The notes below the pieces were generated by a model. The model was not told where the DNA came from. It was given only the letters and a program-made list of their open reading frames with translations, and searched no databases. A DNA stretch of 64,000 nucleotides from Natronorubrum tibetense GA33 (GTDB lineage: Archaea > Halobacteriota > Halobacteria > Halobacteriales > Natrialbaceae). This document shows positions 26,184 through 64,000 of this stretch, piece after piece. The stretch's first letter is position 1. Each line of letters opens with the position of its first letter. The stretch is from NCBI RefSeq assembly GCF_000383975.1, contig NZ_KB913017.1:3696265-3760264 (forward strand), read 5' to 3'. Position numbers and translations under genes: made by a program.

Positions 26184-26818
26184 TCCCCAGTGTGACAGCT
26201 GGGTGAGACGAGCACCTGTTCAGGGAGGACGAAACGAGACCAGCAAAGCGGAGAGTCAGTGGACGTTCAGGTGCGGTGACCGGAACCACGAAAGAAATAA
26301 GAGATTTGTTCTCGATCGATGGCGGTAATAGGAGATATTCGAGTACGGTGCCGTGCAGTTGTACTCGGTTTGGCTATTCGTTCGCGAATGGGGCCCGAGT
26401 CTGTCTAACGACGACGTTGTACAGCGACAATAAAACCGAAACTCCGTGTTATTTCCGATGGAAATCTCGCATAGACCGAGTGGGGTGAGCAGTAAATTGT
26501 AACTCTAGTCCCCAATCAGTCGTTCTGAGGCCTCAAATCGTTGGCAGCGACGGTTAATCACTGAAACGATCGTTTCGGCTTTTGACAGTATCGTCGGTAT
26601 CAAAGGCATATGAGCAGCGTGATTTTACCCCGCAAAGAATGTAGCTACCTGAGAAGTCGACATCAGAGTGACCTATTAGAAGGCCGTAACCGGTTGGCCA
26701 ACACAGGTCGTCGATCACGGCCGCTTCGACAGTATACGTGCGCTACGACCGGTCATACTTCTGAACTAACGGTCCATTCGGGTGTTAGTCGATGTCGAAC
26801 ACATCGTGGGGATAATCG
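26184..26818. other. Long intergenic region upstream of the glycan operon
   Basis: I see no supported gene in these 635 bases; the short open frames have poor haloarchaeal codon character. A perfect 10-base palindrome, GTTGGCCAAC, lies at 26693-26702, about 120 bases before the first gene, and could be an operator. The stretch is less GC-rich than its neighbours and marks the left border of the surface-glycan locus. Confidence 0.4.
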
Positions 26819-27886
26819 ATGACTATGCGAGCTAACGAACAACTCGATGTCGGAGTGATCGGAGTGGGGTCGATGGGACAACACCACGTGCGCGTCTACA
26901 GTTCGCTCCCGGACGCAAACCTCGTCGGTGTCTTCGACGCCGACGAGAACCGTGCGCGGGCGGTCGCACACGATCATGACACGTCCGCGATGGAGTTCGA
27001 TCCGCTTCTCGACGCCGTCGACGCCATCTCGATTGCGGTTCCCACGAGCGCACACTACGAGATAGCGACCCGCTGTCTGGAGGCCGGCGTCGCAGCGCTC
27101 GTGGAGAAGCCGGTGGTCGGCGATCTCGAAACCGGACAGGACCTACTCGAGAGGGCGAATTCGGCGGACGTTTTGCTACAGGTTGGTCACATTGAGCGGT
27201 TCAATCCGGCAGTGATAACGCTCGCGGAGATTCTCGACGAGATCTCAGTGATCGGCCTCGCTTCGCGCCGACTCGGCCCGCCACCAAACACGAAAACGGA
27301 CGACAGTGCCGTACTCGACCTGATGATCCACGATATCGATATCGTCCTCTCGCTTCTCGACGAGGTTCCGACGTCCGTGAAGGGAACCGGGGTTCGAAAG
27401 AACGGGCACGTCTCAGCGCTAGTGGAATTCGGGCCCGACCTGATGGCATCACTGACGGCGAGCCATCGGACGCAGCGGAAAGTGCGAACGCTCGAGGTCA
27501 CCGCCGAAGAGGGGCTGTTCCTCGTCGATTACATCAACCAGTCGATCGAGATTCACCGTCGCTCGGTTCCGGAGTACGTCGAGCAGAACGGCAAGATCCG
27601 TTACAGACACGAGAGTTCCGTCGAACACCTGCACGTTCCGAACGAAGAGCCCCTCCGAAACGAACTCGAGTCGTTTCTGAAGGCGGTCGCAACGAACTCC
27701 TCGCCCAAGGTCACGCTCGAAGACGGGTTGAATGCGCTCGAAATCGCAGAACAAATCGAACAACAGGGTCTGGGGACCCTACCGAAGAAGGACACGCACA
27801 AACGGCTGTCGAATGAAAGGATATGCGCGACCGAACGGGGCAGAGGAGAGACGAGAAATAAACAACCGTCTGACAGGGGTGGGTGA
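26819..27886 (+). CDS. Gfo/Idh/MocA-family sugar-nucleotide oxidoreductase
   Basis: This 355-residue NAD(P)-dependent oxidoreductase likely acts on a nucleotide sugar. The Rossmann motif is GVIGVGSMGQHHVRVY, and the family EKP motif appears as LVEKPVVGD. HIERFNPAV is typical of the group oxidising UDP-N-acetylglucosamine or its uronate at C3. The C-terminal domain ends at about residue 325 and is followed by an Arg/Lys-rich tail. Either ATG at 26819 or 26825 is possible. It is the first gene of a tightly packed glycan operon; its stop is one base before the next start. The precise substrate is inferred from context. Confidence 0.85.
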   Translation: MTMRANEQLDVGVIGVGSMGQHHVRVYSSLPDANLVGVFDADENRARAVAHDHDTSAMEFDPLLDAVDAISIAVPTSAHYEIATRCLEAGVAALVEKPVVGDLETGQDLLERANSADVLLQVGHIERFNPAVITLAEILDEISVIGLASRRLGPPPNTKTDDSAVLDLMIHDIDIVLSLLDEVPTSVKGTGVRKNGHVSALVEFGPDLMASLTASHRTQRKVRTLEVTAEEGLFLVDYINQSIEIHRRSVPEYVEQNGKIRYRHESSVEHLHVPNEEPLRNELESFLKAVATNSSPKVTLEDGLNALEIAEQIEQQGLGTLPKKDTHKRLSNERICATERGRGETRNKQPSDRGG

Positions 27887-27887
27887 C

Positions 27888-29222
27888 ATGTCGTCTCATC
27901 GATCGTCGAGTCGACCCTACGACTCGTCCGGGACAGACCAACACTCCGTCATTTGCGTTGTGGGGCTGGGATACGTCGGCCTCCCGCTCGCGTACGAGTT
28001 CGATCGTGCCGGCCACACCGTCATCGGATTCGATGTCGATACCGAAAAGATTGAGCGACTTCGTTCCGGGGTTGATCCGACCAGCGACGTCGGGGACGAC
28101 GCGATAGCGGATTGTGACGTCTCGTTCACGAACGAACCGGCAGCGGTGAGCGCCGCACGGTTCGTTCTCGTGACCGTCCCCACACCGCTCGACGATCTGA
28201 AGAACCCGGATCTCGAGTTTGTCCGGAGTGCGGGCGAAACGATCGGCCGAAACATCGAACCGGGTACGATCGTGATACTCGAGTCCACGGTCTATCCCGG
28301 AGCCACACGAGAAGTTCTCGCACCTGCGATCGAACAGTCGTCAGGCCTGCAGTGTGGCGAGGACTTCTATGTTGGGTACTCGCCCGAGCGACTCGTTCCC
28401 GGCACCGACGAACACACCATCCGAAACGTCACGAAGATTGTGAGTGCACAAACCGACGAGATCCGCGACGAGATCGCGTCCCTGTACGAGACCATTGTCG
28501 ACGCCGGTGTCCACCGAGCACCGAGCATCGAGGTGGCGGAAACGGCGAAGTGTATCGAGAACATCCAGCGCGATCTGAATATTGCGCTCGTCAACGAGCT
28601 CGCGATCGCGTGTGAAAACCTCGGCGTCGACACGAGAGAGGTGCTCAAGGCAGCTCGTACCAAGTGGAATTTTCACGATTATCGGCCGGGCTTGGTCGGC
28701 GGCCACTGCATCCCGATCGACCCCTTCTACATCATTTACAAGTCCAAACAAAATGGATTCATGCCGCACCTGATACAGCAGGCGCGTGACGTCAACGAGT
28801 ACGTTCCCGTGCACATCGGAAAACTCGTAATCAAGTGTTTGAACAACTGTGACAAGGTTCCCCGACGAAGTTGCGTTCTCGTCCTCGGACTCTCCTACAA
28901 GCCGGGTGTAGGTGACGTTCGAACCTCCGCCATTGATGGGACGATAGCGTATCTCGAAGGATTCGACATCGATGTCGTCGGATACGATCCCTGCACAGAG
29001 AACGACGTCGCACGCGCCGAGTTCGGCATCGAGGTCCAGGAGGAACTGTCGTTCGAGGGCGTCGATGGGATCGTCTTGGCGACGGCCCACGAGGAGTTCC
29101 GATCCATCGATTACGGAACCGCAGCAGAGGACATGGCGGACGACCCGTTCTTCGTCGACGTCAACGCGCTGTTCGACACCGACGAGATGACCGAGTGCGG
29201 ATACGAGTATCGGAGATTGTAA
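27888..29222 (+). CDS. UDP-sugar 6-dehydrogenase (UDP-ManNAc/UDP-GlcNAc type)
   Basis: This 444-residue enzyme oxidises the C6 of a UDP-hexose(amine) to a uronic acid using two NAD+. The N-terminal Rossmann motif is VVGLGYVGLPLAYEFDRAG. YSPERLVPG follows, and the catalytic Cys lies in GLVGGHCIPIDPFYI. The third domain holds LGLSYKPGVGDVR. These features place it in the WecC/TuaD-like family, with WecC-type (UDP-N-acetylmannosamine or glucosamine) features most likely. I chose the ATG at 27888, directly after the previous stop; the open frame upstream overlaps the oxidoreductase gene. Its product would feed the oxidoreductase and glycosyltransferases of this operon. Confidence 0.92.
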   Translation: MSSHRSSSRPYDSSGTDQHSVICVVGLGYVGLPLAYEFDRAGHTVIGFDVDTEKIERLRSGVDPTSDVGDDAIADCDVSFTNEPAAVSAARFVLVTVPTPLDDLKNPDLEFVRSAGETIGRNIEPGTIVILESTVYPGATREVLAPAIEQSSGLQCGEDFYVGYSPERLVPGTDEHTIRNVTKIVSAQTDEIRDEIASLYETIVDAGVHRAPSIEVAETAKCIENIQRDLNIALVNELAIACENLGVDTREVLKAARTKWNFHDYRPGLVGGHCIPIDPFYIIYKSKQNGFMPHLIQQARDVNEYVPVHIGKLVIKCLNNCDKVPRRSCVLVLGLSYKPGVGDVRTSAIDGTIAYLEGFDIDVVGYDPCTENDVARAEFGIEVQEELSFEGVDGIVLATAHEEFRSIDYGTAAEDMADDPFFVDVNALFDTDEMTECGYEYRRL

Positions 29223-29224
29223 TC

Positions 29225-30271
29225 ATGTATCGAAATCATCACATTGGTGTGATCGTACCAGCATACAACGAAGAGGGTCACGTCGGAGACGTCATCCGCG
29301 AGATGCCCGAGTTCGTCGATCGGATCTACGCCGTCGACGACCGGTCGACGGACGGAACGTGGGCCGAAGTGCTGGACGCTGCCGAAACCGGCGCGGGCGA
29401 GCACTCGTCCAGTGGGCTCCGGACGATGTTGACGGATGGCGGTCGAATCGCGAATCGAGGATCCGTTCACGAACGAGTCGGCCAAGTCGTTCCAGTTCGC
29501 CATCACGAGAACAGGGGTGCCGGCGGGTCGATCAAGACGGGCTATCTACTGGCGCTCGTAGATGGGGTCGATATCACGGTCACCGTCGACGGCGACGAGC
29601 AGATGGACCTCGGTCAGATGACGCGCTTGCTCGATCCGATCGTGGAAGGGCGGGTCCAGTACGCGAAAGGAAACCGTTTGCTCCGCACGAAACCGAACAG
29701 AGTGATGCCAACCTGGCGACTCTTCGGGAACGCGGTTCTGACAGTTTTGACGAGTATTGCCAGCGGTTACTGGGGGATAATGGACCCTCAAAATGGGTAC
29801 ACCGCTATTTCACGAGAGGCGCTCGAGACCATCGAGGTCGAGGACCTCTACGAGTACTACGGGTACACCAACGACGTACTCACGAAATTGAACGTTCACA
29901 ATATCCGTGTCGGTGACGTGACGATGAAACCGATCTACGGAGATGAAAAGTCGAGTATCGTATACACGGAATACATTCCCAAAGTATCCGGAATGCTCCT
30001 GCGGAACTTCGTATGGCGACTACAGAAGACCAACCGCGGATGGTTCGTCCACCCACTCGCGCTATCGTACATCGTCGGTGGGATCGCTTCAGGCCTCGCG
30101 GCGGCCATCGGAGTTCGATCGCTGTACGCACACGTAAGTCGAAAAAAAGGCTCGACTGAACGATTCGCGTCGAGCCTCACGCTATTTGCAGTGGGGTGTC
30201 TCTGCATACTGTTCGGTACAGTGTTCGATATACACTGCAACGAGGAGAAGGTGGTGCGTATCCATGACTAG
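29225..30271 (+). CDS. Family 2 glycosyltransferase with C-terminal membrane helices
   Basis: This 348-residue membrane-anchored glycosyltransferase has a GT-A domain with nucleotide-binding start IGVIVPAYNEEGHVGDVI and DxD-type VDGDEQMDLG. It also has the DPM-like loop NGYTAISREALE and two C-terminal hydrophobic helices (about 285-305 and 320-340). The layout resembles dolichol-phosphate sugar synthases, so it may load a sugar on a polyprenyl carrier. An insert at residues 55-90 (EHSSSGLRTMLTDGG) is not standard. The ATG at 29225 lies two bases after the previous stop; the next gene overlaps its end by eight bases. Confidence 0.9.
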   Translation: MYRNHHIGVIVPAYNEEGHVGDVIREMPEFVDRIYAVDDRSTDGTWAEVLDAAETGAGEHSSSGLRTMLTDGGRIANRGSVHERVGQVVPVRHHENRGAGGSIKTGYLLALVDGVDITVTVDGDEQMDLGQMTRLLDPIVEGRVQYAKGNRLLRTKPNRVMPTWRLFGNAVLTVLTSIASGYWGIMDPQNGYTAISREALETIEVEDLYEYYGYTNDVLTKLNVHNIRVGDVTMKPIYGDEKSSIVYTEYIPKVSGMLLRNFVWRLQKTNRGWFVHPLALSYIVGGIASGLAAAIGVRSLYAHVSRKKGSTERFASSLTLFAVGCLCILFGTVFDIHCNEEKVVRIHD

Positions 30272-31361
30272 CGACGGTCTCAGCGTCGTCGTGACGATCC
30301 AGCACCCGTCTAACGTTCACTTTTTCCGAAATGCGATAACCGAATTCAGGAGTCGAGGCGACGACGTTCACGTTTTTGCGCGAGAAAAAGACATTGCGTG
30401 TGAGTTGCTCGACGAGTACGGAATCGAGTATCAACTTCTTGCAGGCGGTTCGTCGAACCTGTACGAACTGGCGAAAGTACAGACGAAATACGAGTACGAG
30501 ATTCTGAAACGCGTTCGAAGCCTCCAGCCCGACGTCCTGCTGGCCGTCAGTGAACCGGCGATCACCCACGCGTCCACCTGTTTCGATTGTCAGAGCGTTT
30601 TGTTTACCGACACCGAGCACGCGACGATCCAGAACTACCTCGCGTATCCGTTCGCCGACGTTATTTGCACCCCGGAATCGTACTGGGACGACCTCGGCAA
30701 CAAACAGGTCAGCTATCCCGGCTTCCACCAGCTCGCGTATCTCCATCCCGATCGTTTCTCGCCAAATCCTCGCGTCCTCGACCACGTCGACGCCGACGAG
30801 GACGATAAACTCGCAGTATTACGTCTCGTATCGTGGGACGCCGCTCACGACATCGGACAGCAGGGGATCGGCGGCGTCGAAACGCTCGTCGAGGGTCTCG
30901 AGCGCAGTGGTGTTCGGGTCCTGATCACCTCAGAGACCGAGTTACCGGCGTCGCTCGAAGATCGCCGGGTCGACCTCCCCGTCCACCAGATCCTCGATCT
31001 GCTCTACTACGCGGACCTGTTCATCGGAGAGAGCGGTTCGATGGCCATCGAGAGCGCCGTTCTTGGCACGCCGACGATCTACGTGTCGTCGCTCTCCGCG
31101 GGAGTTCTCGAGAAACTAGAATCGTGGTACGGACTTCTTTTCAGTCATGCCCAAAGTCCGCCGCCTCAGCAACTCCTCGAAGAGGCGACGACCATCCTCG
31201 AGACTGACTCGTCGGTCTGGGAGTCGCGCCGTCAACGCCTGCTCGAGGAGAACGTGGATATGACGGAGTTCATTCTGGAAATCGTCGATCGAACGGTCGC
31301 GGTACCGAAATCTCGGCCCGGGGCCCTGCAAAAAACGATTGATCGAGTGAGACAGCGATGA
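30264..31361 (+). CDS. DUF354 family protein, probable GT-B-fold glycosyltransferase
   Basis: This 365-residue soluble protein matches the archaeal/bacterial DUF354 family. It has the N-terminal strand VVVTIQHPSNVHFFRN, then GDDVHVFAREKD, and the region GESGSMAIESAVLGTPTIYV, which resembles the donor-binding loop of GT-B glycosyltransferases and UDP-GlcNAc epimerases. The family has no firmly assigned reaction to my knowledge, but it is repeatedly seen in polysaccharide loci. The ATG at 30264 overlaps the end of the GT2 gene (ATGACTAG), and its own stop overlaps the next gene, implying translational coupling. Confidence 0.85.
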   Translation: MTSDGLSVVVTIQHPSNVHFFRNAITEFRSRGDDVHVFAREKDIACELLDEYGIEYQLLAGGSSNLYELAKVQTKYEYEILKRVRSLQPDVLLAVSEPAITHASTCFDCQSVLFTDTEHATIQNYLAYPFADVICTPESYWDDLGNKQVSYPGFHQLAYLHPDRFSPNPRVLDHVDADEDDKLAVLRLVSWDAAHDIGQQGIGGVETLVEGLERSGVRVLITSETELPASLEDRRVDLPVHQILDLLYYADLFIGESGSMAIESAVLGTPTIYVSSLSAGVLEKLESWYGLLFSHAQSPPPQQLLEEATTILETDSSVWESRRQRLLEENVDMTEFILEIVDRTVAVPKSRPGALQKTIDRVRQR

Positions 31362-32239
31362 CGGAGTTGCTCGACGAGTACGAATTCGCACTGTGTCTAA
31401 CCCACGACGTCGACCGCCCGTTCAAGACGTTCCAAGCGCCGTACTACGCGCTGCAGGAACGGGACCCGTCACACCTGCGTTCGTTGCTCAACGACGAGCA
31501 ACCCTACTGGCAGTTCGAGGAGGTAATGAGCCTCGAGGACGATCTCGGTGTTCGGTCGTCGTTCTACTTCCTGAACGAGAAACGGCTCTGGGAGAAGGGA
31601 CTGCGAGAGTGGCTGCGTCCCGAGAGCTGGAAGCTCTACGGCGGCCGGTACCGCATCGAAGACGAGCGGATCGTAAACGTGATTCGAGACCTCGATCGCG
31701 GCGGCTGGGAGGTCGGAATTCACGGCTCCTACGAAACGTACGACGACCGGGGACGGCTGTGGTACGAGAAGGAGACGCTCGAGCGTATCCTGGGGAAGGA
31801 AATCCTCGGCGGGCGCCAGCACTATCTTCGATTGAAACGACCGACGACGTGGGAACACCACCGGGCAATCGGGCTGAAATACGACGCGACGCTCGGGTCG
31901 AACGGCGGATACGGGTTCGACGGACAGTACGACGTCCTTCGACCGTTCAACGACGAGTTCGTCGTGTTCCCGCTCACCGCGATGGAGCGGCCCCTGCTTG
32001 AATCCGCCGGGTCGACGGAGGCAGCGTTGCGCGAGTGTAACCGTCTCCTCGACGAGGCAGCGGCGAACGACGCCGTAATGACCGTGTTGTGGCATCCTCG
32101 GTACTTCAACGAGAGCGAATTCCCCGGATACCGGGAGCTGTACGTCGAGTTGATCGAAGGAGCGCAGGATAGAGGTGGATGGGTGGGACCGTGTGGCGAG
32201 TGTTACGACCGACTTGAACTCGAAGAAATGATACAATGA
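31358..32239 (+). CDS. Polysaccharide deacetylase-like (NodB-fold) protein
   Basis: This 293-residue protein has a NodB-like (beta/alpha) barrel pattern. Metal-binding Asp lies in the opening strand CLTHDVDRPFK, a His-containing second motif is VGIHGSYETY, and WHPRYF near the end fits the last motif. It would remove acetyl (or similar) groups from an amino sugar on a glycan or lipid-linked intermediate. It has no signal peptide, so a cytoplasmic substrate is likely. It overlaps both neighbours by four bases and so is an integral operon member. Closely similar genes accompany FemAB-like transferases in some bacterial exopolysaccharide loci. Confidence 0.8.
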   Translation: MTELLDEYEFALCLTHDVDRPFKTFQAPYYALQERDPSHLRSLLNDEQPYWQFEEVMSLEDDLGVRSSFYFLNEKRLWEKGLREWLRPESWKLYGGRYRIEDERIVNVIRDLDRGGWEVGIHGSYETYDDRGRLWYEKETLERILGKEILGGRQHYLRLKRPTTWEHHRAIGLKYDATLGSNGGYGFDGQYDVLRPFNDEFVVFPLTAMERPLLESAGSTEAALRECNRLLDEAAANDAVMTVLWHPRYFNESEFPGYRELYVELIEGAQDRGGWVGPCGECYDRLELEEMIQ

Positions 32240-33240
32240 GCATCGACATCGACACGCTCGAACCGACCGAACGCGAACAGTGGGACGATTACGTCGAGCA
32301 ATCGCCGATGGGAACGTTCTTTCACCGCTACGACGTCCTAGAGGTCATCGAACGGCACGCGTCCGCCGAGTTGCATCCACTGGTAGGATACAAGGGCCAG
32401 GAACCCGTCGGAATTTTTCCGGTATTCGAGATTCGAAAGGGTGGGGTTTCAACCGCGTTCTCACCGCCACCCGGACTCGGATTGCCGTTTTTGGGGCCTG
32501 CCCACCTCAACGAGAACAAGCTCAAACGCAGAAAGCTCGAGCAACGACGGAAACGGTTCGTCGACGGCTGTCTCGAGTGGATCGACGAGGTGTCTGGACC
32601 TCGATACACGCGGATCTGTACGTCGGTCACCTACGACGATCCGCGGCCGTTCAGCTGGAACGACTACGACACGAGGCCGCTACACACCTATCTACTCGAC
32701 CTCGATCGGGACGAGGAACAGCTCAAACGATCCTTCTCGAAGTCGCTCCGTCGCTACCTCGATCCCGACGATTCGGATCGATTCTCCATCGAAGAAGGCG
32801 GCACCGACGCGATCGGCTTCATCCACGAGCAGATCCGGTCGAGATACGAGGCGCAGGGGCGGCGGTACCGGGTACCGCTCGAGTTTCTCACGGACCTGTT
32901 CGAATCGCTCCCGGACGGACGCGTTCGTCCGTATGTCGCGGATGTAGACGGCGAGCGAGCGAGCGGAATCATTGTCTTCGAGGGCCAGTCGACGATCTAC
33001 TACTCGGAGGGTGGCGGAAAGCCCGACGTGGAGTACCCGATAAACGATCTGCTCCACTGGCGAATCATTCGGGACGCCAAAGATCGGGGGGTCGAAACGT
33101 ACGACCTCCACGGGGCCGATTCTCCGCGAATCTGCGAGTACAAGTCGAAGTTCAACCCCGATCTGGGGACGTACTACGAACTGGAGAACGGGACCCCCCT
33201 GATGAACGTCGTCTCGAATCTCTACCAGAAGTACAGATAG
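32236..33240 (+). CDS. FemAB-like peptidyl/aminoacyl transferase (GNAT fold), copy 1
   Basis: This 334-residue soluble protein has the two-GNAT layout of FemAB/MprF-type transferases. The N-half holds SPMGTFFHRYDVLEVIE, PVGIFPVFE and SPPPGLGLPFLGP; the C-half has an acyl/aminoacyl-binding core including YEAQGRRYRVPLEF, ASGIIVFEGQSTIYYSEGG and CEYKSKFNP. Family members attach amino acids from aminoacyl-tRNA to peptidoglycan precursors in bacteria. Archaea lack murein, so here the acceptor is probably the glycan built by this operon. It overlaps the previous stop by four bases. A paralogue lies at 35543-36541. Confidence 0.85.
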   Translation: MSIDIDTLEPTEREQWDDYVEQSPMGTFFHRYDVLEVIERHASAELHPLVGYKGQEPVGIFPVFEIRKGGVSTAFSPPPGLGLPFLGPAHLNENKLKRRKLEQRRKRFVDGCLEWIDEVSGPRYTRICTSVTYDDPRPFSWNDYDTRPLHTYLLDLDRDEEQLKRSFSKSLRRYLDPDDSDRFSIEEGGTDAIGFIHEQIRSRYEAQGRRYRVPLEFLTDLFESLPDGRVRPYVADVDGERASGIIVFEGQSTIYYSEGGGKPDVEYPINDLLHWRIIRDAKDRGVETYDLHGADSPRICEYKSKFNPDLGTYYELENGTPLMNVVSNLYQKYR

Positions 33241-33315
33241 CGGCGCCAAATCGAAGGTACCCCATGTTCGTACGACGAATCCGATCTCCATACAGCCGTT
33301 TACAGCAAGGTACGA

Positions 33316-34776
33316 ATGAGAAGTGACCTCGTATCGAGCGTCACGTCCGAGTTCGCAGGAAGAGCTTTCCACGCCCTGATGGCCGGCGTGTTGCTCGTAT
33401 TCCTCACTCGGTCGCTAGGTGCAGAGTCGTACGGATTGCTCGCGCTGGCGATCTCTGTCTTCGCGTTTTTCAGGTTGTTCAGCGAAATGGGAATCGCTCG
33501 GTCTGCTGCGAGATACGTCGCGGAGTTCAAATCGTCAGAGCCGGCGAAAGCAGACACTGTCGTCGTCGAATCGCGGCTGCTCGCGATCGTTGCAGCGATC
33601 GCAGTCGCGCTGATTCTCGTCGTCTCAGCGGACGTGATCGCCGACGTGCTCGACGAACCGTCGATCGCACCCGTCATCGTCGTTGGTTCGGGTATCGTGC
33701 TATTTTACTCCCTGCACCAGTACAACCGAATTCTTCTGCAGGGGTACGAGAACGTCATCGCGAGTGCGAAGCTTCACGCCCTCGAAGCGCTGTTCACGGG
33801 CCTGTTCGTGATCGGATTCGTCCTCTACGAACCGTCCGCGGTGACCGCGGTCCTCGGATACGTCTTCGGATACGGATCGGCGGCGATCGTCGGGTTCGTC
33901 ATGATCGCCAGGGTTCGGAGTCCGGACGAAACGGGGGAGAGAGATCGATCCGAAATCCGGTACCAGGTTCTCCGGTACAACGTTCCGCTGACCGTGACGA
34001 GACTGTCCGACGTCGTTGACCGACAGGTGGACATCCTCCTCGTGGGCTACTTTATTAATCCGCTGGCCGTCGCGTTCTACACGATCGGGAAAGAAATCTC
34101 GCAGCTCGTCAGCGTCCCTGCGGCTTCGCTCGGCTTCGCACTTTCGCCGACTTACGGTGCTGACAAGGCGGCTGGGCGGGGGAAGAACGCCGCAGCCCTC
34201 TACCAGGAGAGTCTGAACAAGACGCTCATATTTTATGTCCCCGCTGCTGTCGGGATCATCCTCGTCGCAGACGTCGCGATTCCGAGTATCTTTGGCGACG
34301 AGTACACCGGTGCGATTGTCGTTGTGCAAATTCTCGCGTTGTTCGTCTTCTTCGAGGGACTCGCCTCCATTTCGAGCCCTGCCGTCGATTACCTCGGCCG
34401 AGCTCGATCGAAAGCGATCGTCAAATTCATTACGTCGTTAGGAAATCTCATTTTGAACATACTGTTAATTCCGGTCGTAGGTGTCGTTGGCGCTGCGATT
34501 GCGACCGTCATCACGCACGGTCTGTATTCGTTCGCCACCGTCTACATCGTCTACACGGAACTGCCGTTCGACGTCCCAAGCATCGGCCGTTGTCTCTTAC
34601 GGGTGTTGGTGCTTTCCTTCGTGATGGGAACGGCCGTTCACGGACTCACCCAGGCGTTCACGGGGTACACGGCACTGATACTGGGTGTAACGATTGGAAC
34701 CGGTATCTGGCTCTTCGCCTGTCACGCGCTTGATCTCATCGATTACGGCGAGATAGTGACTATGCTCAAAAACTGA
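33316..34776 (+). CDS. Wzx-type polysaccharide flippase
   Basis: This 486-residue integral membrane protein of the MOP/MATE superfamily should move lipid-linked oligosaccharide across the membrane. It has about 14 hydrophobic helices. Its start is SSVTSEFAGRAFHALMAGVL, followed by TRSLGAESYGLLALAISVF and the conserved RLFSEMGIARSAARYVAEF, all standard for Wzx-type proteins. PTYGADKAAGRGKNAA sits in the middle loop. It follows the FemAB-like gene by 75 bases, in the same direction, and closes the main assembly operon. Confidence 0.92.
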   Translation: MRSDLVSSVTSEFAGRAFHALMAGVLLVFLTRSLGAESYGLLALAISVFAFFRLFSEMGIARSAARYVAEFKSSEPAKADTVVVESRLLAIVAAIAVALILVVSADVIADVLDEPSIAPVIVVGSGIVLFYSLHQYNRILLQGYENVIASAKLHALEALFTGLFVIGFVLYEPSAVTAVLGYVFGYGSAAIVGFVMIARVRSPDETGERDRSEIRYQVLRYNVPLTVTRLSDVVDRQVDILLVGYFINPLAVAFYTIGKEISQLVSVPAASLGFALSPTYGADKAAGRGKNAAALYQESLNKTLIFYVPAAVGIILVADVAIPSIFGDEYTGAIVVVQILALFVFFEGLASISSPAVDYLGRARSKAIVKFITSLGNLILNILLIPVVGVVGAAIATVITHGLYSFATVYIVYTELPFDVPSIGRCLLRVLVLSFVMGTAVHGLTQAFTGYTALILGVTIGTGIWLFACHALDLIDYGEIVTMLKN

Positions 34777-34882
34777 TTCCACAGGGGTACGTAACACGAT
34801 GCGAGCGGTGAGTTCGGCCGCTATTATACGGCAGTCCTGTCCAAGTGTTACAGCTACGTCGTTCGTGCTGGAGGGGGCAATC

Positions 34883-35476
34883 ATGGACGTGCTTTCCGGG
34901 TCGTTCGAAAAAATACGTACCGAGTCCCTCGTGTACTATCACGACGGTGCGATACCGAATATTGCGATTCCCAGTCGGGATTTGAATGTTGAATGGGTTG
35001 CGGAGGAATTAATAAATACTGTCGTAGAATCAAGCAACCGACGGGAGAGATTTTTTCATTTCCTCGATTCAGGGTACAGCGGCCTACTCGCACACGACGA
35101 CGAGTCTTGGACCGCGTACGGATGGATCTGTACGCCGAGATCCGACAGGGTTCCGATCCAACTCCCCGACTGGATCGGGGACCTCGATACGTATTGGTTG
35201 TTCTTTGCCAGAACGAGAGAAGGGGATCGCGGGGAAGGATGGCACAAGTATCTTCTCGCCGAACGGCTGCGAGCGATCTACGAATACGACCTCGGTTCGT
35301 CGATTTACACTGACACCGACATCGACAACGTCTCGCGATTTTCGATAGTGTCGAGCGGATTCGGACCGGCAGGAACGCTTAGAACGTACAGTCTGGGCTA
35401 TCCACCATTCGATATGAAAAAGATCGGGCGGTGGAACTGGGACACGTCGCATCCGCCGCTTCCCGAATCAGAGTGA
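34883..35476 (+). CDS. GNAT-like acyltransferase, putative
   Basis: This protein of about 197 residues begins MDVLSGSFEKIRTESLVYYH. The central part (SGYSGLLAHDDESWTAYGWI, then YWLFFARTREGDRGEGWHKY) looks like the strands and acetyl-CoA loop region of a GNAT fold, ending in FSIVSSGFGPAGTLRTYSLG. I prefer the ATG at 34883; an earlier ATG at 34799 would add 28 residues with no clear pattern. Its place between the flippase and a FemAB-like gene supports a role in decorating the glycan. Assignment is by pattern and context only. Confidence 0.6.
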   Translation: MDVLSGSFEKIRTESLVYYHDGAIPNIAIPSRDLNVEWVAEELINTVVESSNRRERFFHFLDSGYSGLLAHDDESWTAYGWICTPRSDRVPIQLPDWIGDLDTYWLFFARTREGDRGEGWHKYLLAERLRAIYEYDLGSSIYTDTDIDNVSRFSIVSSGFGPAGTLRTYSLGYPPFDMKKIGRWNWDTSHPPLPESE

Positions 35477-35542
35477 ATTCGAGTTCTCCGTCTGCCGACC
35501 AGATATCGAATACGTTCCGGTAGTCGATCAATTCGATGCGCG

Positions 35543-36541
35543 TCACCGGAAGCGCTTGTACAGTTCCTTCACTCCGTTCATCGCTTTACTTCCTCGTTCG
35601 AGCGTGTAGTAGGACCGGATCTCGGGATTAAATTTGGCCTTGTACTTACAGAGGCGGGGATTGTTTGCCCCGGCGAGATCGAATCGTTCGATACCGCGTT
35701 CGTGGGCTTGGCGGATATAGTACCAGACGACGAGATCTGTCACGGGTAAATCGAATTCGTAATCGGCTACCCCTTGCCAAGCGAGAATCACCTCGTCGTT
35801 CTCCAGTGTGAGATCGCCGCCGACGAACTCACCTTCCGCTCGACAGATGTACGCGCGCATGGTCCCTTCGGGTAGCGCTCGATAGAGATCGCGAGCGAAG
35901 GACTCGGGGACATTGAACGCGACGCCTTGCTCGGCGTGACGGTTCTGTGCCATGTTGATGATTCTCCCGACGTCCGCCTCGTCGCCTTCGAGAAGTTCGT
36001 ACTCGGCGTCGTCAGCATGGCGAACGTTCGACCGGATGTCACCGCTGAACGTCATAAACAGGTCGTCGGAATCGGGCGTGATGTCGACCTCGTAGGTGAA
36101 CTCCGGGGTCGCCTTGAAGTCGTTCCAGATGAACGGACGGGGATCGTTGTAGGCCGGGTGAGTTCGAACGTGGACGTAGCGAGGGTCGACGGTCTCCTGT
36201 AGTTTCACGTCGACAGCCTCAATAAACCGACGGTGGCGCTTTTCGGCCTTTCGTCGTTTCAGCTTTTCGTGGTTGAGTAAAACGGGACCCAGGTAACTGA
36301 TCTTTAGGTCGGGAGGCGGGGAGAGCGCAATGCGAATCGGGCCCCGCGACAACGCGAAAACCGGGAACAGTCCGATGGGTTCGTCCCCCTTGTAGCCACA
36401 GAACGGATGCAGAGTCGCGTTTGAGTACTCTCCCATCACCTTGAGCGCTTCGAAGCGATGGAAAGGGGTAGTCTGTGGAGAGCGCTCGATGAGGCTGTTC
36501 CATTCGTCTGCGTCGTCGAGACGCGCGACCTCGATACTCAT
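35543..36541 (-). CDS. FemAB-like peptidyl/aminoacyl transferase (GNAT fold), copy 2
   Basis: This 332-residue paralogue of 32236-33240 lies on the opposite strand. The two share SPxxTxFHR at the start, then LHP-GYKG-EPIGLFPVF, SPPPDLKI-YLGP, and NHEKLKRRKAEKRHRRF, and both end with the CKYKAKFNPEI / LYKRFR type of tail. Similarity is moderate, so the duplication is old, and the two may add different residues. The gene converges with the GNAT-like gene and has its own promoter region to the right. Confidence 0.85.
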   Translation of the reverse strand: MSIEVARLDDADEWNSLIERSPQTTPFHRFEALKVMGEYSNATLHPFCGYKGDEPIGLFPVFALSRGPIRIALSPPPDLKISYLGPVLLNHEKLKRRKAEKRHRRFIEAVDVKLQETVDPRYVHVRTHPAYNDPRPFIWNDFKATPEFTYEVDITPDSDDLFMTFSGDIRSNVRHADDAEYELLEGDEADVGRIINMAQNRHAEQGVAFNVPESFARDLYRALPEGTMRAYICRAEGEFVGGDLTLENDEVILAWQGVADYEFDLPVTDLVVWYYIRQAHERGIERFDLAGANNPRLCKYKAKFNPEIRSYYTLERGSKAMNGVKELYKRFR

Positions 36542-36761: not shown

Positions 36762-38657
36762 TTACCGGTAGTACACGACGCTGTTCGAATCGTACACTCG
36801 GTTCCGTTCCGAGAACTCGTCCCACGGCAGTTCGTCCTCGTAGACGTATTCAGATTCGGCCAACTGTAGCGGTCGCTGCTCGAGTTCCCCCTCGCGGATG
36901 AGAACCCCGTCGGCTACTCCGTGGTCGACGGATCCGTCTTCGATCGGCAACCGTTCGCACTCGGACTGCAGCACCTCCTCGTAGTATCGACACGTGACGT
37001 GGTCGGATCCCAACTCGTCTCGATGGACCGCATCGAGCTGCTCGAACGATTCCCGTTCCTGTTCCGTGTGGTAGTACGTGTAGAACTCCCGCTCGACGAG
37101 GGGGTTATCGGATGCGACGAAGTCGTTCGAGACGGCCACGAACGAGAAACACGATACCAGTAGTAATACGACGAGAAACGTTTTGAAACCGCCTCTCTTG
37201 ACCAGTTCGTAGAGTCCGTATCCGGCCGTCAATGCGAGGAAGACGAACCCGTAATGAGCGAACCTGGTGAAGTTCACTCCTGCCAGCGATTCGACGAGGA
37301 GCGTCGGACCTGGGAACAACAGGGGGATCATCAGCACTGTCGCGACGCTGAACGAGGTGAGAAGCGGTGCCTCGTCGCGCGTCCGTTCGAACCAGAAGAG
37401 AAATCCGACGAGTACGAAGAATAACGCGAAGGCGTACGGGAGGTAATTCGCCAACTCGTGCCACGGGAATTGCAATACGCCCCCGGGAGCACCCTCCGTC
37501 GGACTCGTTCCGACGAAAATGCCGACGGTGTAATCGATTACGAGGGCCGCGAGGCTCTCGGCGCTATACAACCAGTAAATGCCGGTGATCGCGCCAGCGA
37601 TGAGCAGCACCGATCCGTCGACGACGTATTTTTCAGCCCCGATTCCGCGCTCGAGAGAGCGCTGGTTGACGGTGTATCCCCGCTCGACGACGAATAGAAT
37701 TCCGAGTAGTACCAGCACGAACGGGATCGATACCGTGTGATAGAACACGATAGCGGCGACGAAGAGAGCACTCAGCAGCCGCATTCTGACCGACGCGCGG
37801 GAGACAAGCGTGAAGAGGAGAACGATAAACAGGACGGACGTGATGCTCCGCGAGATCGAGTACATACCGTAGAAGACGTACTCGGGGATCGCAATGAGCA
37901 CCAGACAGGAGAGTAACGCGACCGTCTCGTTCGGATACACACGACGCGCGAGGACGTACATCATCACCACGCCCGCACCGAAGATGAGTCCAGAAAGTAA
38001 GACCATCGTCGTGTGAGGATTAATCGACTCGCCCAGAAGGGCATACGACGACGCAGTGTACGTGTGCCACAGCGGAAACGACTCGTACAGTTCCCACGTT
38101 TCGGGCATCGTACCGGTTTCGTAAATCGAGAGCATCATTCCGACATGAGCGGGCAAATCCGTTCTACCGATGAAGTAATCGTAGTTGAGCGTCACGCTGA
38201 AAATCGAGACCAGCAGCGCCAGGATACAGTGATAGAGTGCGACACCGCTGCGTGCAGCGCCGGGTCCGGATGAGAGAATTAGTAAAAACAACAGCCCGTA
38301 GACGGCGGCAAACACGAAATAAAACGCCGTCGGTCGAACGGCGTACGCCGCCGTCATGGAGATCAGAATCGCGACGAGTACGTGAACCAGTATCGATGGA
38401 ATTCGCCAGTCGAGTCGGCGGAGTGAATCGGGATCGAACGTCGTCTTTGTTTTCTTTTCAGTCGACCGTCGGAACGACCGCGCTACCACGGGTGCGAGCA
38501 GCATCGGAACGGCGAGATAGATTCCGAGAATACTGAAATTCGACAGTCCCAGCAACAGCGGCGTCAAAATGCCGACAACCGCCAAAACGGGCAGGCCGTA
38601 GATCATGAGCGCGTACGTGAGAGCGAACAATTGCTCGCGGCTTACGGCGAACGTCAT
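36762..38657 (-). CDS. Large polytopic membrane protein, GT-C/GT39-like glycosyltransferase candidate
   Basis: This 631-residue protein has about 13 hydrophobic helices up to residue 510, then a soluble acidic C-terminal part of ~110 residues. An early outside loop contains YDYFIGRTDLPAHVGMM, with an acidic residue pair after TM helices, as in lipid-phosphate-sugar-dependent GT-C enzymes. TWELYESFPLWHTYTASSYA and YPNETVALLSCLVL follow. The C-terminal tail carries several Tyr-rich strands (VYDSNSVVYYR). It could transfer sugars from a polyprenyl carrier, or act as a polymerase for the locus. The exact family is uncertain. Confidence 0.7.
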   Translation of the reverse strand: MTFAVSREQLFALTYALMIYGLPVLAVVGILTPLLLGLSNFSILGIYLAVPMLLAPVVARSFRRSTEKKTKTTFDPDSLRRLDWRIPSILVHVLVAILISMTAAYAVRPTAFYFVFAAVYGLLFLLILSSGPGAARSGVALYHCILALLVSIFSVTLNYDYFIGRTDLPAHVGMMLSIYETGTMPETWELYESFPLWHTYTASSYALLGESINPHTTMVLLSGLIFGAGVVMMYVLARRVYPNETVALLSCLVLIAIPEYVFYGMYSISRSITSVLFIVLLFTLVSRASVRMRLLSALFVAAIVFYHTVSIPFVLVLLGILFVVERGYTVNQRSLERGIGAEKYVVDGSVLLIAGAITGIYWLYSAESLAALVIDYTVGIFVGTSPTEGAPGGVLQFPWHELANYLPYAFALFFVLVGFLFWFERTRDEAPLLTSFSVATVLMIPLLFPGPTLLVESLAGVNFTRFAHYGFVFLALTAGYGLYELVKRGGFKTFLVVLLLVSCFSFVAVSNDFVASDNPLVEREFYTYYHTEQERESFEQLDAVHRDELGSDHVTCRYYEEVLQSECERLPIEDGSVDHGVADGVLIREGELEQRPLQLAESEYVYEDELPWDEFSERNRVYDSNSVVYYR

Positions 38658-39268: not shown

Positions 39269-39297
39269 ATCGTTTGGTGACTTTCATGCGGAAAGAC

Positions 39298-39305
39298 TTA
39301 TTATA
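39298..39305 (+). promoter_or_regulatory. TATA box of first lyase-like gene
   Basis: TTATTATA is centred about 29 bases before the ATG at 39331, so the message is predicted to be leaderless, as for the other exported proteins in this window. Confidence 0.6.
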
Positions 39306-39330
39306 CCGTGACTGTCTGTATACAATTACA

Positions 39331-41322
39331 ATGGCACGCGATCGACCGATACTGGACGGCAATAGCAGCAGCACTGGCGACGAGCGACGAACAACCGACA
39401 ACCGTTGTAACAGGCGGTCGTACCTGAAACTGACCAGTGGTGCCGCTGTGGCAGCGGCGTCTCTGGGGATGGCCACAACCACGGCGAGTGCGACGGCGGG
39501 CTCCGATCCCGCCGCGTATCTCGAGAGCGCGGACGACTACAACCACGTCTCGTTCGACGGGAACTGGGAACAGTGGTTCACGAATACGCACGGCGGCTAC
39601 GTTTCGACGACGACGAATCACAGTCGTGGTGGCAGCGCACTCCGCATCGACTGGCCGACGGGAGAGTACTACGGCGCGACGATGGAGTACCTCATGGACG
39701 AAAACCACGGCTACCAGCCCGACTCCGGCCACGTCCGCTACTGGGTCTACTTCCCCGACGACTGGGAGTTCCACTCCGACGGTCTCGGCGGGACGAAACT
39801 CCCCGGCTTCGCTGGCACCTACCAAACCGGCGACCACGACATCGGTCCCGGCGGCTACGGTGGCCGCCCCTCCGACGGTACCAACGGTTGGTCGTCCCGA
39901 CTGTTCAACTGCCGACCAGATCGGGCCGGCGGCCGCGGCCCAATCGGTCTCGGCAGTCAGGTCTACCACGCCGGCGACGGCGGCGAACACGGTGCGCACC
40001 CGACCTGGGACGCCGCCCTCGAGACGGGCACTTGGCACCGGATCGACCAGTATGTCGAGATGAATACGCCCGGCAGGGAAGACGGCGTCTACCGCGGCTG
40101 GGTTGACGGCGACCTCGCCGTCGAGATGGAGGGGCTGTACTTCCGCGACGAAGGGTACGGTGACCTGATCGGCATCCAAACGCTGTGGGCGATGTTTTAC
40201 TTCGGCGGCGACTGGGGGTCGCCGGTCGACCAGCACATGCTGTTCGACGATCTGGAGATCTGGTTGTGGAACGATCGTCCGGATCTGAGCGACGGGAATG
40301 ATGACGAGAGCGGTGAACCGACCGAACCGAGCGTTAGTACCGGCGGTTCAATCGTCGACGAAACCGCTATCGAACTCACCGGCGAGGTGGAAACAGTCGG
40401 CGAGCACGACGCGTTGGAAGCCCGATTCTACTTCCGCGAAGCCGGGAGCGACGGTTGGGTCTGGCATTATGCGGGCCCAACCGACGTTACCGAACCGACG
40501 AGTATCGCCCGAACCATGTCCAGCGACGAGTTAGCGGAGGGTTCGGAGTACGAATATTACGCGTCCTTGATCGATGGAAGCGAACAAGTAGCTACGGGCG
40601 AGACGGAAACGTTCACGACGTTCGAAGAAGAGGCGGAAGAAGGCCCAAGCGTGACTACTGGAAGTACGGAGGTCACCGACGAGTCCGTCGAGTTAACCGG
40701 CGAGGTCGAAACAGTCGGCGAGCACGACGCGTTGGAAGCCCGATTCTACTTCCGCGAGGCCGGGAGTGACGGCTGGGTCTGGCATTACGCGGGCCCAACC
40801 GATGTTACCGAACCGACGAGTATCACCCGAACCATGTCCAGCGACGAGTTAGCGGAGGGTTCGGAGTACGAATATTACGCGTCCCTGCTCGATGGAAGCG
40901 AACAAGTAGCTACGGGCGAGACGGAAACGTTCACGACGTTCGAAGAAGAGGCGGAAGAAGGCCCAAGTGTGACTACCGGAGGTGCGGAGGTCACCGACGA
41001 GTCCGTCGAGTTAACCGGTGAGGTCGAAACAGTCGGCGAGCACGACGCGTTGGAAGCCCGATTCTACTTCCGCGAAGCCGGGAGTGGCGGCTGGGTCTGG
41101 CATTACGCGGGCCCAACCGATGTTACCGAGCCGACGAGTATCGCCCGAACCATGTCCAACAATGAGTTGGAGACAGGGGCGGAGTACGAGTACTACGCGT
41201 CACTGTTGGATGGGGCCAACCGGGTTGCCGAAGGGTCGGTACAGGCGTTCACTACGGCCGACGACGAGGAGGATACCGAAGACGACGAAGAACGTCCAAA
41301 CCGTGGTCGAGGACAAACTTAA
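39331..41322 (+). CDS. Tat-exported polysaccharide-lyase-like protein with three beta-sandwich repeats
   Basis: This is a 663-residue secreted protein. The Tat motif is NRRSYLKLTSG (Arg28-Arg29) followed by an Ala-rich core. Residues about 60-315 form a jelly-roll lyase-like domain with GNWEQWFTN, DWPTGEYYGATMEYLMDENH, WEFHSDGLGGTKLPGFAGTY, NGWSSRLFNCRPD, HRIDQYVEMNTPG and FGGDWGSPVDQHMLFDD. This resembles the concanavalin-like folds of PL14/PL20 alginate or glucuronan lyases, a resemblance seen by eye. Three near-identical repeats of 106 residues follow, of the fibronectin-III-like type (FYFREAGSDGWVWHYAGP). It ends with an acidic tail. I chose the ATG at 39331 over one at 39274 because of the TATA box position. 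It probably cuts acidic polysaccharide outside the cell. Confidence 0.82.
   Translation: MARDRPILDGNSSSTGDERRTTDNRCNRRSYLKLTSGAAVAAASLGMATTTASATAGSDPAAYLESADDYNHVSFDGNWEQWFTNTHGGYVSTTTNHSRGGSALRIDWPTGEYYGATMEYLMDENHGYQPDSGHVRYWVYFPDDWEFHSDGLGGTKLPGFAGTYQTGDHDIGPGGYGGRPSDGTNGWSSRLFNCRPDRAGGRGPIGLGSQVYHAGDGGEHGAHPTWDAALETGTWHRIDQYVEMNTPGREDGVYRGWVDGDLAVEMEGLYFRDEGYGDLIGIQTLWAMFYFGGDWGSPVDQHMLFDDLEIWLWNDRPDLSDGNDDESGEPTEPSVSTGGSIVDETAIELTGEVETVGEHDALEARFYFREAGSDGWVWHYAGPTDVTEPTSIARTMSSDELAEGSEYEYYASLIDGSEQVATGETETFTTFEEEAEEGPSVTTGSTEVTDESVELTGEVETVGEHDALEARFYFREAGSDGWVWHYAGPTDVTEPTSITRTMSSDELAEGSEYEYYASLLDGSEQVATGETETFTTFEEEAEEGPSVTTGGAEVTDESVELTGEVETVGEHDALEARFYFREAGSGGWVWHYAGPTDVTEPTSIARTMSNNELETGAEYEYYASLLDGANRVAEGSVQAFTTADDEEDTEDDEERPNRGRGQT
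40330..41265 (+). repeat. Three tandem 318-bp intragenic repeats
   Basis: The unit starting with the codons for GEVETVGEHDALEARFYF occurs at 40381, 40699 and 41017, exactly 318 bases apart. Long runs are identical at the DNA level, including silent positions, so the copies are recent or homogenised. The third copy diverges after about 41155. Confidence 0.9.
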
Positions 41323-41506: not shown

Positions 41507-41562
41507 AGCGAATTCGAACTCGAGAAAGTTTATAATTGTATTACTCGGTTGGTCGAGTCGTA

Positions 41563-42510
41563 ATGGAACGTTACCGAGCGGACGCGGACGACAGTAGCCC
41601 CTCGACTGAACACACTCGGTATCGCGGGACTGACGACGGACTCGGTCGACGATCTTGCCTCAAACTGGCGGGCGGAACGCTTGCGACGCTGGGCATCGCG
41701 AGCGGGGCTGCGAGCGGACGTGACGACTCGGAGTCCGGACACGATCTTGAGACTGCGTCCGACCACACCGCCATTTCGTTCGACGGAAACTGGGAACAGT
41801 GGTTCACGAACACGGAGGGCACCAACACATCGGTGACGTCCGATTCGGACCGCTCGGACGCCGTATTGCGCGTGGACTGGCCGACGGGAGAGTACTACGG
41901 CGCGACGATGGAGTACCTCATGGACGAAAACCACGGCTACCAGCCCGACTCCGGCCACGTCCGCTACTGGGTCTACTTCCCCGACGATTGGGAGTTCCAC
42001 TCCGACGGTCTCGGCGGGACGAAACTCCCCGGCTTCGCCGGCACCTACCAGACCGGCGACCACGACATCGGTCCCGGCGGCTACGGTGGCCGCCCCTCCG
42101 ACGGCACCAACGGCTGGTCGTCCCGACTGTTCAACTGCCGACCAGATCGGGCCGACGGGAACGGGCCGATCGGTCTCGGCAGTCAGGTCTACCACGCCGG
42201 CAACGGCGGCGAACACGGCGCGCACCCGACCTGGGACGCCGCACTCGAGAGGGGAACCTGGCACCAGATCGATCAGTACGTCGAGATGAATACGCCCGGC
42301 AGGGAAGACGGCGTCTACCGCGGCTGGGTTGACGGCGACCTCGCCGTCGAGATGGAGAGGCTGTACTTCCGCGACGAGGGGTACGGTGACCTGATCGGCA
42401 TTCAGGCCCTGTGGTGCAACTGTTACTTCGGCGGCGATTGGGGCTCGCCGGTCGACCAGCACATGCTGTTCGACGACCTCGAACTGTGGCTCTGGGAGGA
42501 GCGGCCCTGA
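41563..42510 (+). CDS. Tat-exported polysaccharide-lyase-like protein, second paralogue
   Basis: This 315-residue protein has Tat motif GRRSCLKLAGG (Arg29-Arg30). It consists of the lyase-like domain alone, ending WLWEERP, with no repeats. From DWPTGEYYGATM to the end it is almost identical to the first paralogue, including at DNA level, whereas its N-terminal 100 residues are clearly different. The start ATG at 41563 lies 30 bases after TTTATAATT. The sharp boundary of identity indicates recent gene conversion or duplication. Same predicted activity as its neighbour. Confidence 0.82.
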   Translation: MERYRADADDSSPSTEHTRYRGTDDGLGRRSCLKLAGGTLATLGIASGAASGRDDSESGHDLETASDHTAISFDGNWEQWFTNTEGTNTSVTSDSDRSDAVLRVDWPTGEYYGATMEYLMDENHGYQPDSGHVRYWVYFPDDWEFHSDGLGGTKLPGFAGTYQTGDHDIGPGGYGGRPSDGTNGWSSRLFNCRPDRADGNGPIGLGSQVYHAGNGGEHGAHPTWDAALERGTWHQIDQYVEMNTPGREDGVYRGWVDGDLAVEMERLYFRDEGYGDLIGIQALWCNCYFGGDWGSPVDQHMLFDDLELWLWEERP

Positions 42511-42783
42511 CTTCTGAGTCGCTATCGCATCGCCCGATAGCGCGGCCACGCCGACGGAAAGCCGACGAGTAGACCGATACACTCGATCGGTTCCATCGAC
42601 GCAAGCGACGGAAGCGTGTCGGAAGACGACTCAGCGCGGTCGTCGACATCGAGAAGTAACGTCTGATAACTCTTTCCTGACCTACTCCGAGGGATTACCG
42701 TTCGTTGATTCACCTCCAAACACTCGTTTACGGCGCTAATGACGGCCAAAGGCTCTTATCCGATGAAGGTAGTAGGTTCCCGT

Positions 42784-43659
42784 ATGCGTCGACGTGCCCT
42801 CCTCGCTGCGGTCGCTGGAACGACACTAGCGGGATGTTTTACCGACGATCCAGACTACGGCGAGGTAGATGACGTCGACGACCTCCTCGAAACCGCCGAT
42901 CAGTACAACACGGTATCGTTCGACGAGGACTGGGAACGGTGGTTCACGAACATCTTTGAGGGATCCGATACGACGACGTACACCGGTCGATCGGACGTTC
43001 CGTTTCGGGTCTACTGGCCCGAAGGTGAATATTACGGAATGACGATGGACCACTTCATGGAGGAGCACTACGACTTCGAACCCGAAGCTGCCCACCTCCG
43101 GACGTGGATGCGGTTCCCGGACGAATGGGAGTTTTACTCGGACGGGCTCGGTGGAACCAAACTCCCGGGGTTCGCGTCGCGGTTCAACGGTAGCGATACG
43201 GAACAGGGAGGATACGGCGGTCGGGAGGTTGACGGGACGAACGGATGGTCCGCGCGTATGTTCAATTGCCGGCCCGACCGACATCCCGAGGGAGCGGGGC
43301 CGATCGCCCTCGGGACGCAAATCTATCACGCGGAGGCCGACCGCGAGTACGGCGACCACCCGCGGTGGGACGTTCCGCTCGAGACGGACACCTGGCACCG
43401 CATCGACCAGTACGTCGAGGTGAACGCGCCCGGCGAATCCGATGGGGCGTACCTCGCCTGGGTCGACGGGGAACGCGCTATCGGCGTCGACGAACTCTAC
43501 ATGCGCGACGAAGGATACGAGGATATCAAAATCGAGTCCCTGTGGTTCAACTGTTACTTCGGCGGTGACTGGGGGTCGCCAGTCGACCAGCACATGGACT
43601 TCGACGACCTCCAGTTGTGGCTGTGGAGTGAGCGACCGAGCGTAACGGCGTCGCAGTGA
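42784..43659 (+). CDS. Polysaccharide-lyase-like lipoprotein, third paralogue
   Basis: This protein of about 291 residues has the short Tat/lipoprotein signal MRRRALLAAVAGTTLAGC, with Cys18 as the lipid-modified residue, so it is anchored to the membrane. The lyase-like domain follows, with DEDWERWFTN, WPEGEYYGMTMDHFMEEH, SDGLGGTKLPGFASRF, GTNGWSARMFNCRPD, WHRIDQYVEVNAPGE and FGGDWGSPVDQHMDFDD. It is more divergent than the first two are from each other. I chose the ATG at 42784 because the signal then begins canonically; an upstream ATG at 42763 would hide it. It may work at the cell surface while its paralogues are released. Confidence 0.82.
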   Translation: MRRRALLAAVAGTTLAGCFTDDPDYGEVDDVDDLLETADQYNTVSFDEDWERWFTNIFEGSDTTTYTGRSDVPFRVYWPEGEYYGMTMDHFMEEHYDFEPEAAHLRTWMRFPDEWEFYSDGLGGTKLPGFASRFNGSDTEQGGYGGREVDGTNGWSARMFNCRPDRHPEGAGPIALGTQIYHAEADREYGDHPRWDVPLETDTWHRIDQYVEVNAPGESDGAYLAWVDGERAIGVDELYMRDEGYEDIKIESLWFNCYFGGDWGSPVDQHMDFDDLQLWLWSERPSVTASQ

Positions 43660-63955: not shown

Positions 63956-64000
63956 CTCCTCACGTTGCTGCTTTACTATGCTTTAATGCGTGAAGCCACA

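Follow-up and report, generated by a model that had tools for sequence, protein, structure and literature searches.

A 64,000-nucleotide stretch of contig NZ_KB913017.1 of Natronorubrum tibetense GA33 (hereafter the window), from a haloarchaeal genome of 4.93 Mb, carries a tight operon of seven genes (26819-34776) followed by a GNAT-like gene and a second FemAB-like gene. We propose, with moderate confidence, that this operon encodes an archaeal equivalent of the Wbp/Vim pathway of bacteria, in which a sugar would be synthesized, loaded onto a carrier, deacetylated, aminoacylated and flipped. The original prediction for this DNA held that deacetylation frees an amino group on a lipid-linked sugar, which FemAB-like enzymes then acylate with an amino acid. 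Deacetylation followed by aminoacylation is still the best reading, and the Fem fold and the linkage to the deacetylase speak for it, while the lipid-linked acceptor and the aminoacyl donor are parts of the scheme that we infer. The proposal is built on gene content, gene order and synteny, the Fem and CE4 folds, the conservation of the FemX lysine, and co-occurrence across genomes; the identity of the sugar, the C2 site, the donor, the amino acid, the carrier stage and the order of the steps are deduced from these.

The FemAB-like protein P0006 (32236..33240, forward strand; PF13480, 61.6 bits) is a candidate aminoacyltransferase of the VimA kind, as judged by its fold and by profile searches. 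An AlphaFold2 model built from 64 haloarchaeal sequences has a predicted local distance difference test (pLDDT) score of 92.2 and a double-GNAT Fem fold. Using Foldseek, the top match to this model was Weissella FemX (E 5.7e-16, template modeling (TM) score 0.75), followed by aminoacyl-tRNA-dependent enzymes solved with streptothrisamine and by FemX and FemA of S. aureus, with tandem GNATs, MprF-type aminoacyl-phosphatidylglycerol synthase domains and acetyl-CoA enzymes at lower ranks. The single P0006 sequence found no match among PDB sequences. The profile of 64 sequences alone worked, returning FemX (~6e-10) and the streptothrisamine-solved tRNA-dependent synthases (1.4e-8), and no acetyl-CoA GNAT was among its matches up to E 1. 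In the profile alignment, the catalytic Lys305 of FemX (K305) is aligned with K303 of P0006, and this position is a lysine in all 64 relatives. Since both Foldseek and the profile favor FemX and the tRNA-dependent enzymes, we do not take a plain acetyl-CoA GNAT as the best model of P0006; the FemAB architecture assumed in the original prediction is what the model shows. The donor is probably aminoacyl-tRNA. At the level of curated families, the two FemAB-like proteins score 16.0 and 18.5 bits against PF02388, the FemAB family of Pfam, and do not reach its gathering score of 24. Filing P0006 and its paralog P0009 under TIGR03019 was rejected, as their scores are under the cut-off of that family.

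The deacetylase candidate P0005 (31358..32239, forward strand) is CE4/NodB-like and VimE-like. No Pfam family reaches its curated cut-off with this protein (18.1 vs. 26 bits for DUF2334), and the nearest NCBIfam model is NF053580 (VimE), which aligns over profile positions 238-427 with 43.2 bits and an E-value of 1.9e-11; P0005 was not filed as VimE, being under the cut-off of the model. As a profile search against PDB sequences gave no meaningful match for P0005, we turned to fold comparison. The AlphaFold2 model has a pLDDT of 88, and its best Foldseek matches are polysaccharide deacetylases and ArnD, which share the CE4 fold. Residues D17, D19, H122, H155 and H246 are invariant across 25 sequences, and a second histidine in motif 2 of P0005 is not evident. 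For comparison with VimE and VimA, a pair of Parabacteroides proteins stood in for those of Porphyromonas. The VimE of Parabacteroides distasonis passes the NF053580 cut-off (731 bits) and shares 24% identity with P0005 (E 3e-13), with the motifs LTHDVD, H-x-SY, R-x-H and LWH common to the two. The GNAT adjoining this VimE, which from its position should be VimA, is homologous to P0006 (E 3e-8; hhalign 96.5%).

We surveyed 292 Halobacteria genomes, together with the neighborhoods of 40 sampled 20-kb deacetylase loci. Homologs of FemAB were found in 170 genomes, of the deacetylase in 144, and of a WbpD-like acetyltransferase in 191. FemAB is present in 139 of the 144 deacetylase-bearing genomes vs. 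31 of the 148 that lack a deacetylase, and the WbpD-like gene in 143 of 144 vs. 48 of 148, in counts uncorrected for relatedness. A FemAB gene lies inside the 20-kb stretch at 31 of the 40 loci, compared with a chance expectation of ~1% for a given 20 kb (2-3 copies in a ~4 Mb genome). It follows the deacetylase by 400 bases or less at 14 loci, and 14 loci have at least two FemAB genes. DUF354 is found at 31 loci, the WbpA-type and WbpB-type dehydrogenases each at about half, and all four Wbp-type genes at 15. The recurrent order is WbpD-WbpE-Gfo(WbpB)-UDP-sugar dehydrogenase (WbpA)-GT2-(WecB)-(DUF354)-deacetylase-FemAB-GT4-Wzy-Wzx. Among named organisms, Halovivax sp. KZCA124 (Natrialbaceae) has the operon most closely related to this one, and there the gene order of the window is kept at 62-82% identity (82% for the FemAB-like protein), with wbpD-wbpE in front. 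Because this order is kept, and deacetylase and FemAB occur together at 31 of 40 loci, the gene grouping is not due to chance. The neighborhood search suggested with the original prediction thus finds the FemAB-like gene retained with the deacetylase across Halobacteria. On pHME505 of Haloferax mediterranei the order is acyltransferase, DegT aminotransferase, Gfo, dehydrogenase, wecB, deacetylase and two GNAT/FemAB genes, and H. denitrificans carries a matching gene set. Near the pHME505 cluster (locus L212, 1929-3791) there is also an asparagine-synthase-like gene with a weak match to the XrtA amidotransferase TIGR03108; it is reminiscent of WbpS and is a candidate uronamide enzyme.

All nine predicted open reading frames (ORFs) are open, and Pfam and NCBIfam searches back the named families, confirming the tight seven-gene run with its two following genes. 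The gene labels given originally need two small corrections: the deacetylase falls under every Pfam cut-off, and the GNAT-like gene has no family match. The first gene encodes a Gfo/Idh/MocA oxidoreductase, P0001 (26819..27886, forward; PF01408, 89.5 bits), that resembles WbpB, a UDP-GlcNAc(A) 3-dehydrogenase; its nearest NCBIfam model, UDP-GlcNAc 3-dehydrogenase, gives 229 bits and a cut-off of 450 is not reached. P0002 (27888..29222, forward; longest ORF from 27732) is a WbpA/TviB-like 6-dehydrogenase of the UDP-GlcNAc type, which passes the cut-off of TIGR03026 (370 bits) and scores 326 bits with the TviB model, below the cut-off of 592. These are followed by a family 2 glycosyltransferase (GT2; 29225..30271, forward; PF00535, 48 bits) with weak matches to AglJ and PpgS, and by a DUF354 protein (30264..31361, forward; PF04007, 64 bits) that is a candidate GT-B-type glycosyltransferase or epimerase-like protein. 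After the deacetylase and P0006, the operon ends with a Wzx/MOP-type flippase (33316..34776, forward; PF01943, 94 bits), starting 75 bases past the end of the FemAB-like gene. The likely true starts of the 6-dehydrogenase, GT2, DUF354 and GNAT-like genes are 27888, 29225, 30264 and 34883, and with these the spacing across genes 1-6 ranges from an 8-base overlap to a 2-base gap. DUF354 and the deacetylase gene share 4 bases, and so do the deacetylase and P0006 genes.

Because the two dehydrogenases point to it, we take the sugar to be the 2,3-diamino uronic acid GlcNAc(3NAc)A, and together with WbpE and WbpD, presumably supplied from a plasmid, they would produce UDP-GlcNAc(3NAc)A. The GT2 probably loads polyprenyl phosphate, and with DUF354 it would put the sugar on this carrier; alternatively, the sugar could be modified while still nucleotide-linked. 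In the next step the CE4-like deacetylase would remove an N-acetyl group, for which C2 is the most likely position. The FemAB-like enzyme would attach an amino acid to the freed amine, with aminoacyl-tRNA as the probable donor, and the flippase would then export the glycan.

The operon in the window has neither wbpD nor wbpE, and from the sequence the aminotransferase and acetyltransferase genes appear to have decayed out of it. The 635-base gap before the operon holds an intergenic relic (26550..26818, forward): a decayed wbpE segment with internal stops, best matched at ~26610-26733, and a stretch resembling the region upstream of wbpD. By tblastn the segment matches Halovivax WbpE with 30.4 bits, whereas all 1000 shuffled sequences stayed below 28 bits, and positions 26554-26585 are a 32-base DNA match (84%) to the region upstream of Halovivax wbpD. 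Elsewhere in this genome, the plasmid contig C4 encodes WbpD-WbpE-Gfo-UDP-sugar dehydrogenase-GT2 with intact copies of wbpD and wbpE, so supply of both enzymes in trans is plausible but unproven.

A tree of the 64 FemAB sequences has one clade that is mostly deacetylase-adjacent and a larger second clade that mostly adjoins phosphodiesterase-like genes; the neighbor labels switch several times on the tree, so that recruitment must have occurred more than once. P0006 belongs to a small clade with six members, of which four adjoin a deacetylase; by identity, the second clade is nearer to it than the deacetylase-adjacent one. P0009 is placed in the second clade. In many haloarchaea, members of this clade stand next to type I phosphodiesterase-like genes, e.g., at locus L205 (15986-18600).

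Several of these results weigh against the proposed pathway. P0006 lies outside the clade that holds most deacetylase-adjacent FemAB proteins elsewhere, the co-occurrence counts ignore phylogeny, and FemAB homologs are present with no deacetylase in 31 of the 292 genomes. P0005 is far below the NF053580 equivalog cut-off of 440 bits, and TIGR03019, the NCBIfam model that both FemAB-like proteins match best, gives 38.1 and 26.0 bits with a cut-off of 260. By alignment reading, the K303 position in the VimA-like protein of Parabacteroides is not a lysine, and K303 is for that reason not diagnostic of VimA-type function. The absence of wbpD and wbpE from the operon means that supply in trans has to be assumed, and the published exopolysaccharide of H. 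denitrificans has N-acetyl groups only (PMC3191746). We conclude that the system is real and widely conserved and that it probably works like Wbp/Vim, yet fails the formal cut-offs of VimE and TIGR03019.

The amine freed by the deacetylase could instead be re-acylated by the FemAB-like proteins with acetyl, formyl or hydroxyacyl, with no amino acid involved. The name of PF13480, 'Acetyltransf_6', would suit this, as would the separate GNAT with an acyl-CoA-type motif at the same locus, and for HfsK/HfsH, an analogous pair of Fem-like protein and deacetylase, a re-acylation of this sort is suspected. However, the best structural and profile matches of P0006 are aminoacyl-tRNA-dependent, with acetyl-CoA tandem GNATs scoring worse, and on reading its sequence we do not see the canonical R/QxxGxG/A pyrophosphate loop, so that we consider re-acylation of this kind unlikely, though it is the rival that we take most seriously.

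Less probable again is that deacetylase and FemAB do not act in sequence but on different residues of one polysaccharide, or that the acceptor of FemAB is a peptide, a lipid or a protein, with the linkage reflecting a shared surface-glycan island. FemAB homologs are multicopy, occur without a deacetylase in the 31 genomes mentioned above, lie kilobases away from it at several loci, and have one clade that mostly adjoins phosphodiesterase-like genes. Such independence fits poorly with FemAB being present in 139 of 144 deacetylase-bearing genomes, with its position 400 bases or less downstream at 14 of 40 loci, and with the 4-base overlap in the window. The cluster might also be an ordinary acidic exopolysaccharide cluster, making a plain polymer of GlcNAc(3NAc)A or GlcNAcA to whose final structure the deacetylase and FemAB are irrelevant. 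The cluster occurs in H. denitrificans and H. mediterranei, for which exopolysaccharides with GlcA2,3NAc or GlcNAcA and no amino acids have been reported; three lyases resembling polysaccharide lyase family 14 (PL14) adjoin the operon as well. But a plain polymer leaves unexplained why a Fem-type transferase is retained with a deacetylase, and both species may make further, unanalyzed glycans; we regard it as very improbable.

Past the operon, the single-domain GNAT-like protein (34883..35476, forward; longest ORF from 34799) had no match in the Pfam family search and is conserved at four related loci; it has an RGxGW motif of the type usual in acyl-CoA GNATs. P0009 (35543..36541, reverse strand; PF13480, 66 bits) is 40% identical to P0006 over its full length. 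It is followed by a protein with multiple transmembrane segments (36762..38657, reverse; no Pfam match), a candidate polymerase or GT-C protein, with homologs at seven of the 40 other sampled loci. The three secreted PL14-like lyases (39274-41322, 41536-42510 and 42739-43659, all forward; PF21294, 60.6, 66.9 and 57.6 bits) fit a uronate-containing polymer. Secreted lyase or beta-helix-like proteins form a linkage cluster recurring at 21 of the 40 deacetylase loci. An ATP-grasp protein (46440-47660), with homologs at nine of these loci, is a possible ligase of amino acids or carboxylates for the glycan. At the end of the window (58001-64000), the G+C content drops to 41% in a region with a transporter, a methyltransferase and one unassigned gene, possibly the start of another island.

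If the proposed pathway is correct, the Wbp/Vim type of aminoacyl-sugar synthesis, which is known to serve surface anchoring in bacteria, extends to archaea, and Fem-type enzymes act on glycans of murein-free cells. It would also provide an enzymatic candidate for the amino-acid-substituted wall sugars of haloarchaea reported more than four decades ago, with a defined gene pair in cluster-bearing Haloferax species that are open to genetic work. A wider claim, which we offer tentatively and hold to be doubtful, is that haloarchaea have a widespread, murein-independent and tRNA-dependent aminoacyl-polysaccharide pathway, and that a deacetylase and FemAB-like pair makes the N-glycyl-glucosamine bridges described for Halococcus in 1979. 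In one genus of our survey (g43), deacetylase and FemAB are found in all eight sampled genomes (G044, G073, G157, G209, G236, G250, G253 and G256), and the surface-glycoprotein signal family halo_sig_pep is absent from six of the eight but present in all ten comparison genomes of other genera. This genus looks like Halococcus, although a comparison by plasmid similarity gave no Halococcus match, and its pattern is a supporting hint for the wall reading. The possible link to the Halococcus wall would be the most valuable extension of this work.

Archaea have, to our knowledge, no peptidoglycan or murein, and we would not expect type IX secretion or A-type lipopolysaccharide in them. P0006 resembles the FemABX enzymes in its double-GNAT fold (TM score 0.75 to FemX) and the invariant K305 equivalent, but shares only ~16% identity with FemX and is under the PF02388 cut-off. 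The streptothricin-type glycine transferase Orf11, which glycylates streptothrisamine, is among its tRNA-dependent matches. Like the FemAB proteins of XrtA/PEP-CTERM systems (TIGR03019), it pairs with deacetylases and glycosyltransferases of exopolysaccharide loci; family searches assigned no exosortase at the locus, though no search was aimed at exosortase or archaeosortase. In the Caulobacter holdfast, the deacetylase HfsH and the Fem-like GNAT HfsK serve one adhesin pathway; HfsK differs in binding cyclic di-GMP, and no Wbp genes are implied (PMC5362036).

The closest system is that of P. gingivalis and T. forsythia, in which VimE is proposed to take the C2 acetyl off GlcNAc(3NAc)A and VimA to add serine or glycine; swapping vimA exchanges the amino acid, with genetic and mass spectrometry support (PMC7468200). 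The same paper ties VimA to TIGR03019, the XrtA connection cited in the original prediction, which missed this nearer pair of deacetylase and aminoacyl-transferase. Haloarchaeal clusters share with the bacterial system enzymes of the WbpA, WbpB, WbpE and WbpD types together with a CE4-like deacetylase and a Fem-like transferase, and in the window the WbpA-type 6-dehydrogenase P0002, the WbpB-type 3-dehydrogenase P0001 and the VimA homolog P0006, which adjoins the deacetylase with a 4-base gene overlap. In contrast, P0005 is without the ~160-residue N-terminal region of VimE, the operon lacks wbpD/wbpE, and the archaeal cluster adds DUF354, an AglJ-like GT2 and a flippase. The exopolysaccharide of H. 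denitrificans contains 2,3-diacetamido-2,3-dideoxyglucuronic acid (GlcA2,3NAc; PMC3191746), the sugar that the four Wbp enzymes would make. Contrary to the earlier statement that no such chemistry is described for haloarchaea, the walls of Halococcus morrhuae have N-glycyl-glucosaminyl bridges, according to the passage of PMC4187196 that cites Steber and Schleifer (1979). A haloarchaeal surface polysaccharide whose amino sugar bears an amino acid in amide linkage is the predicted type of product, although this is another organism, with glucosamine rather than a diamino uronic acid and with enzymes that this passage does not name. Our literature search found no archaeal FemAB or Vim-type pathway in the papers searched. 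With Wbp/Vim (PMC7468200) and the Halococcus walls (PMC4187196), there are precedents for the logic of the pathway as well as for the chemistry in archaea; no paper in our search brings the two together in an archaeal gene cluster.

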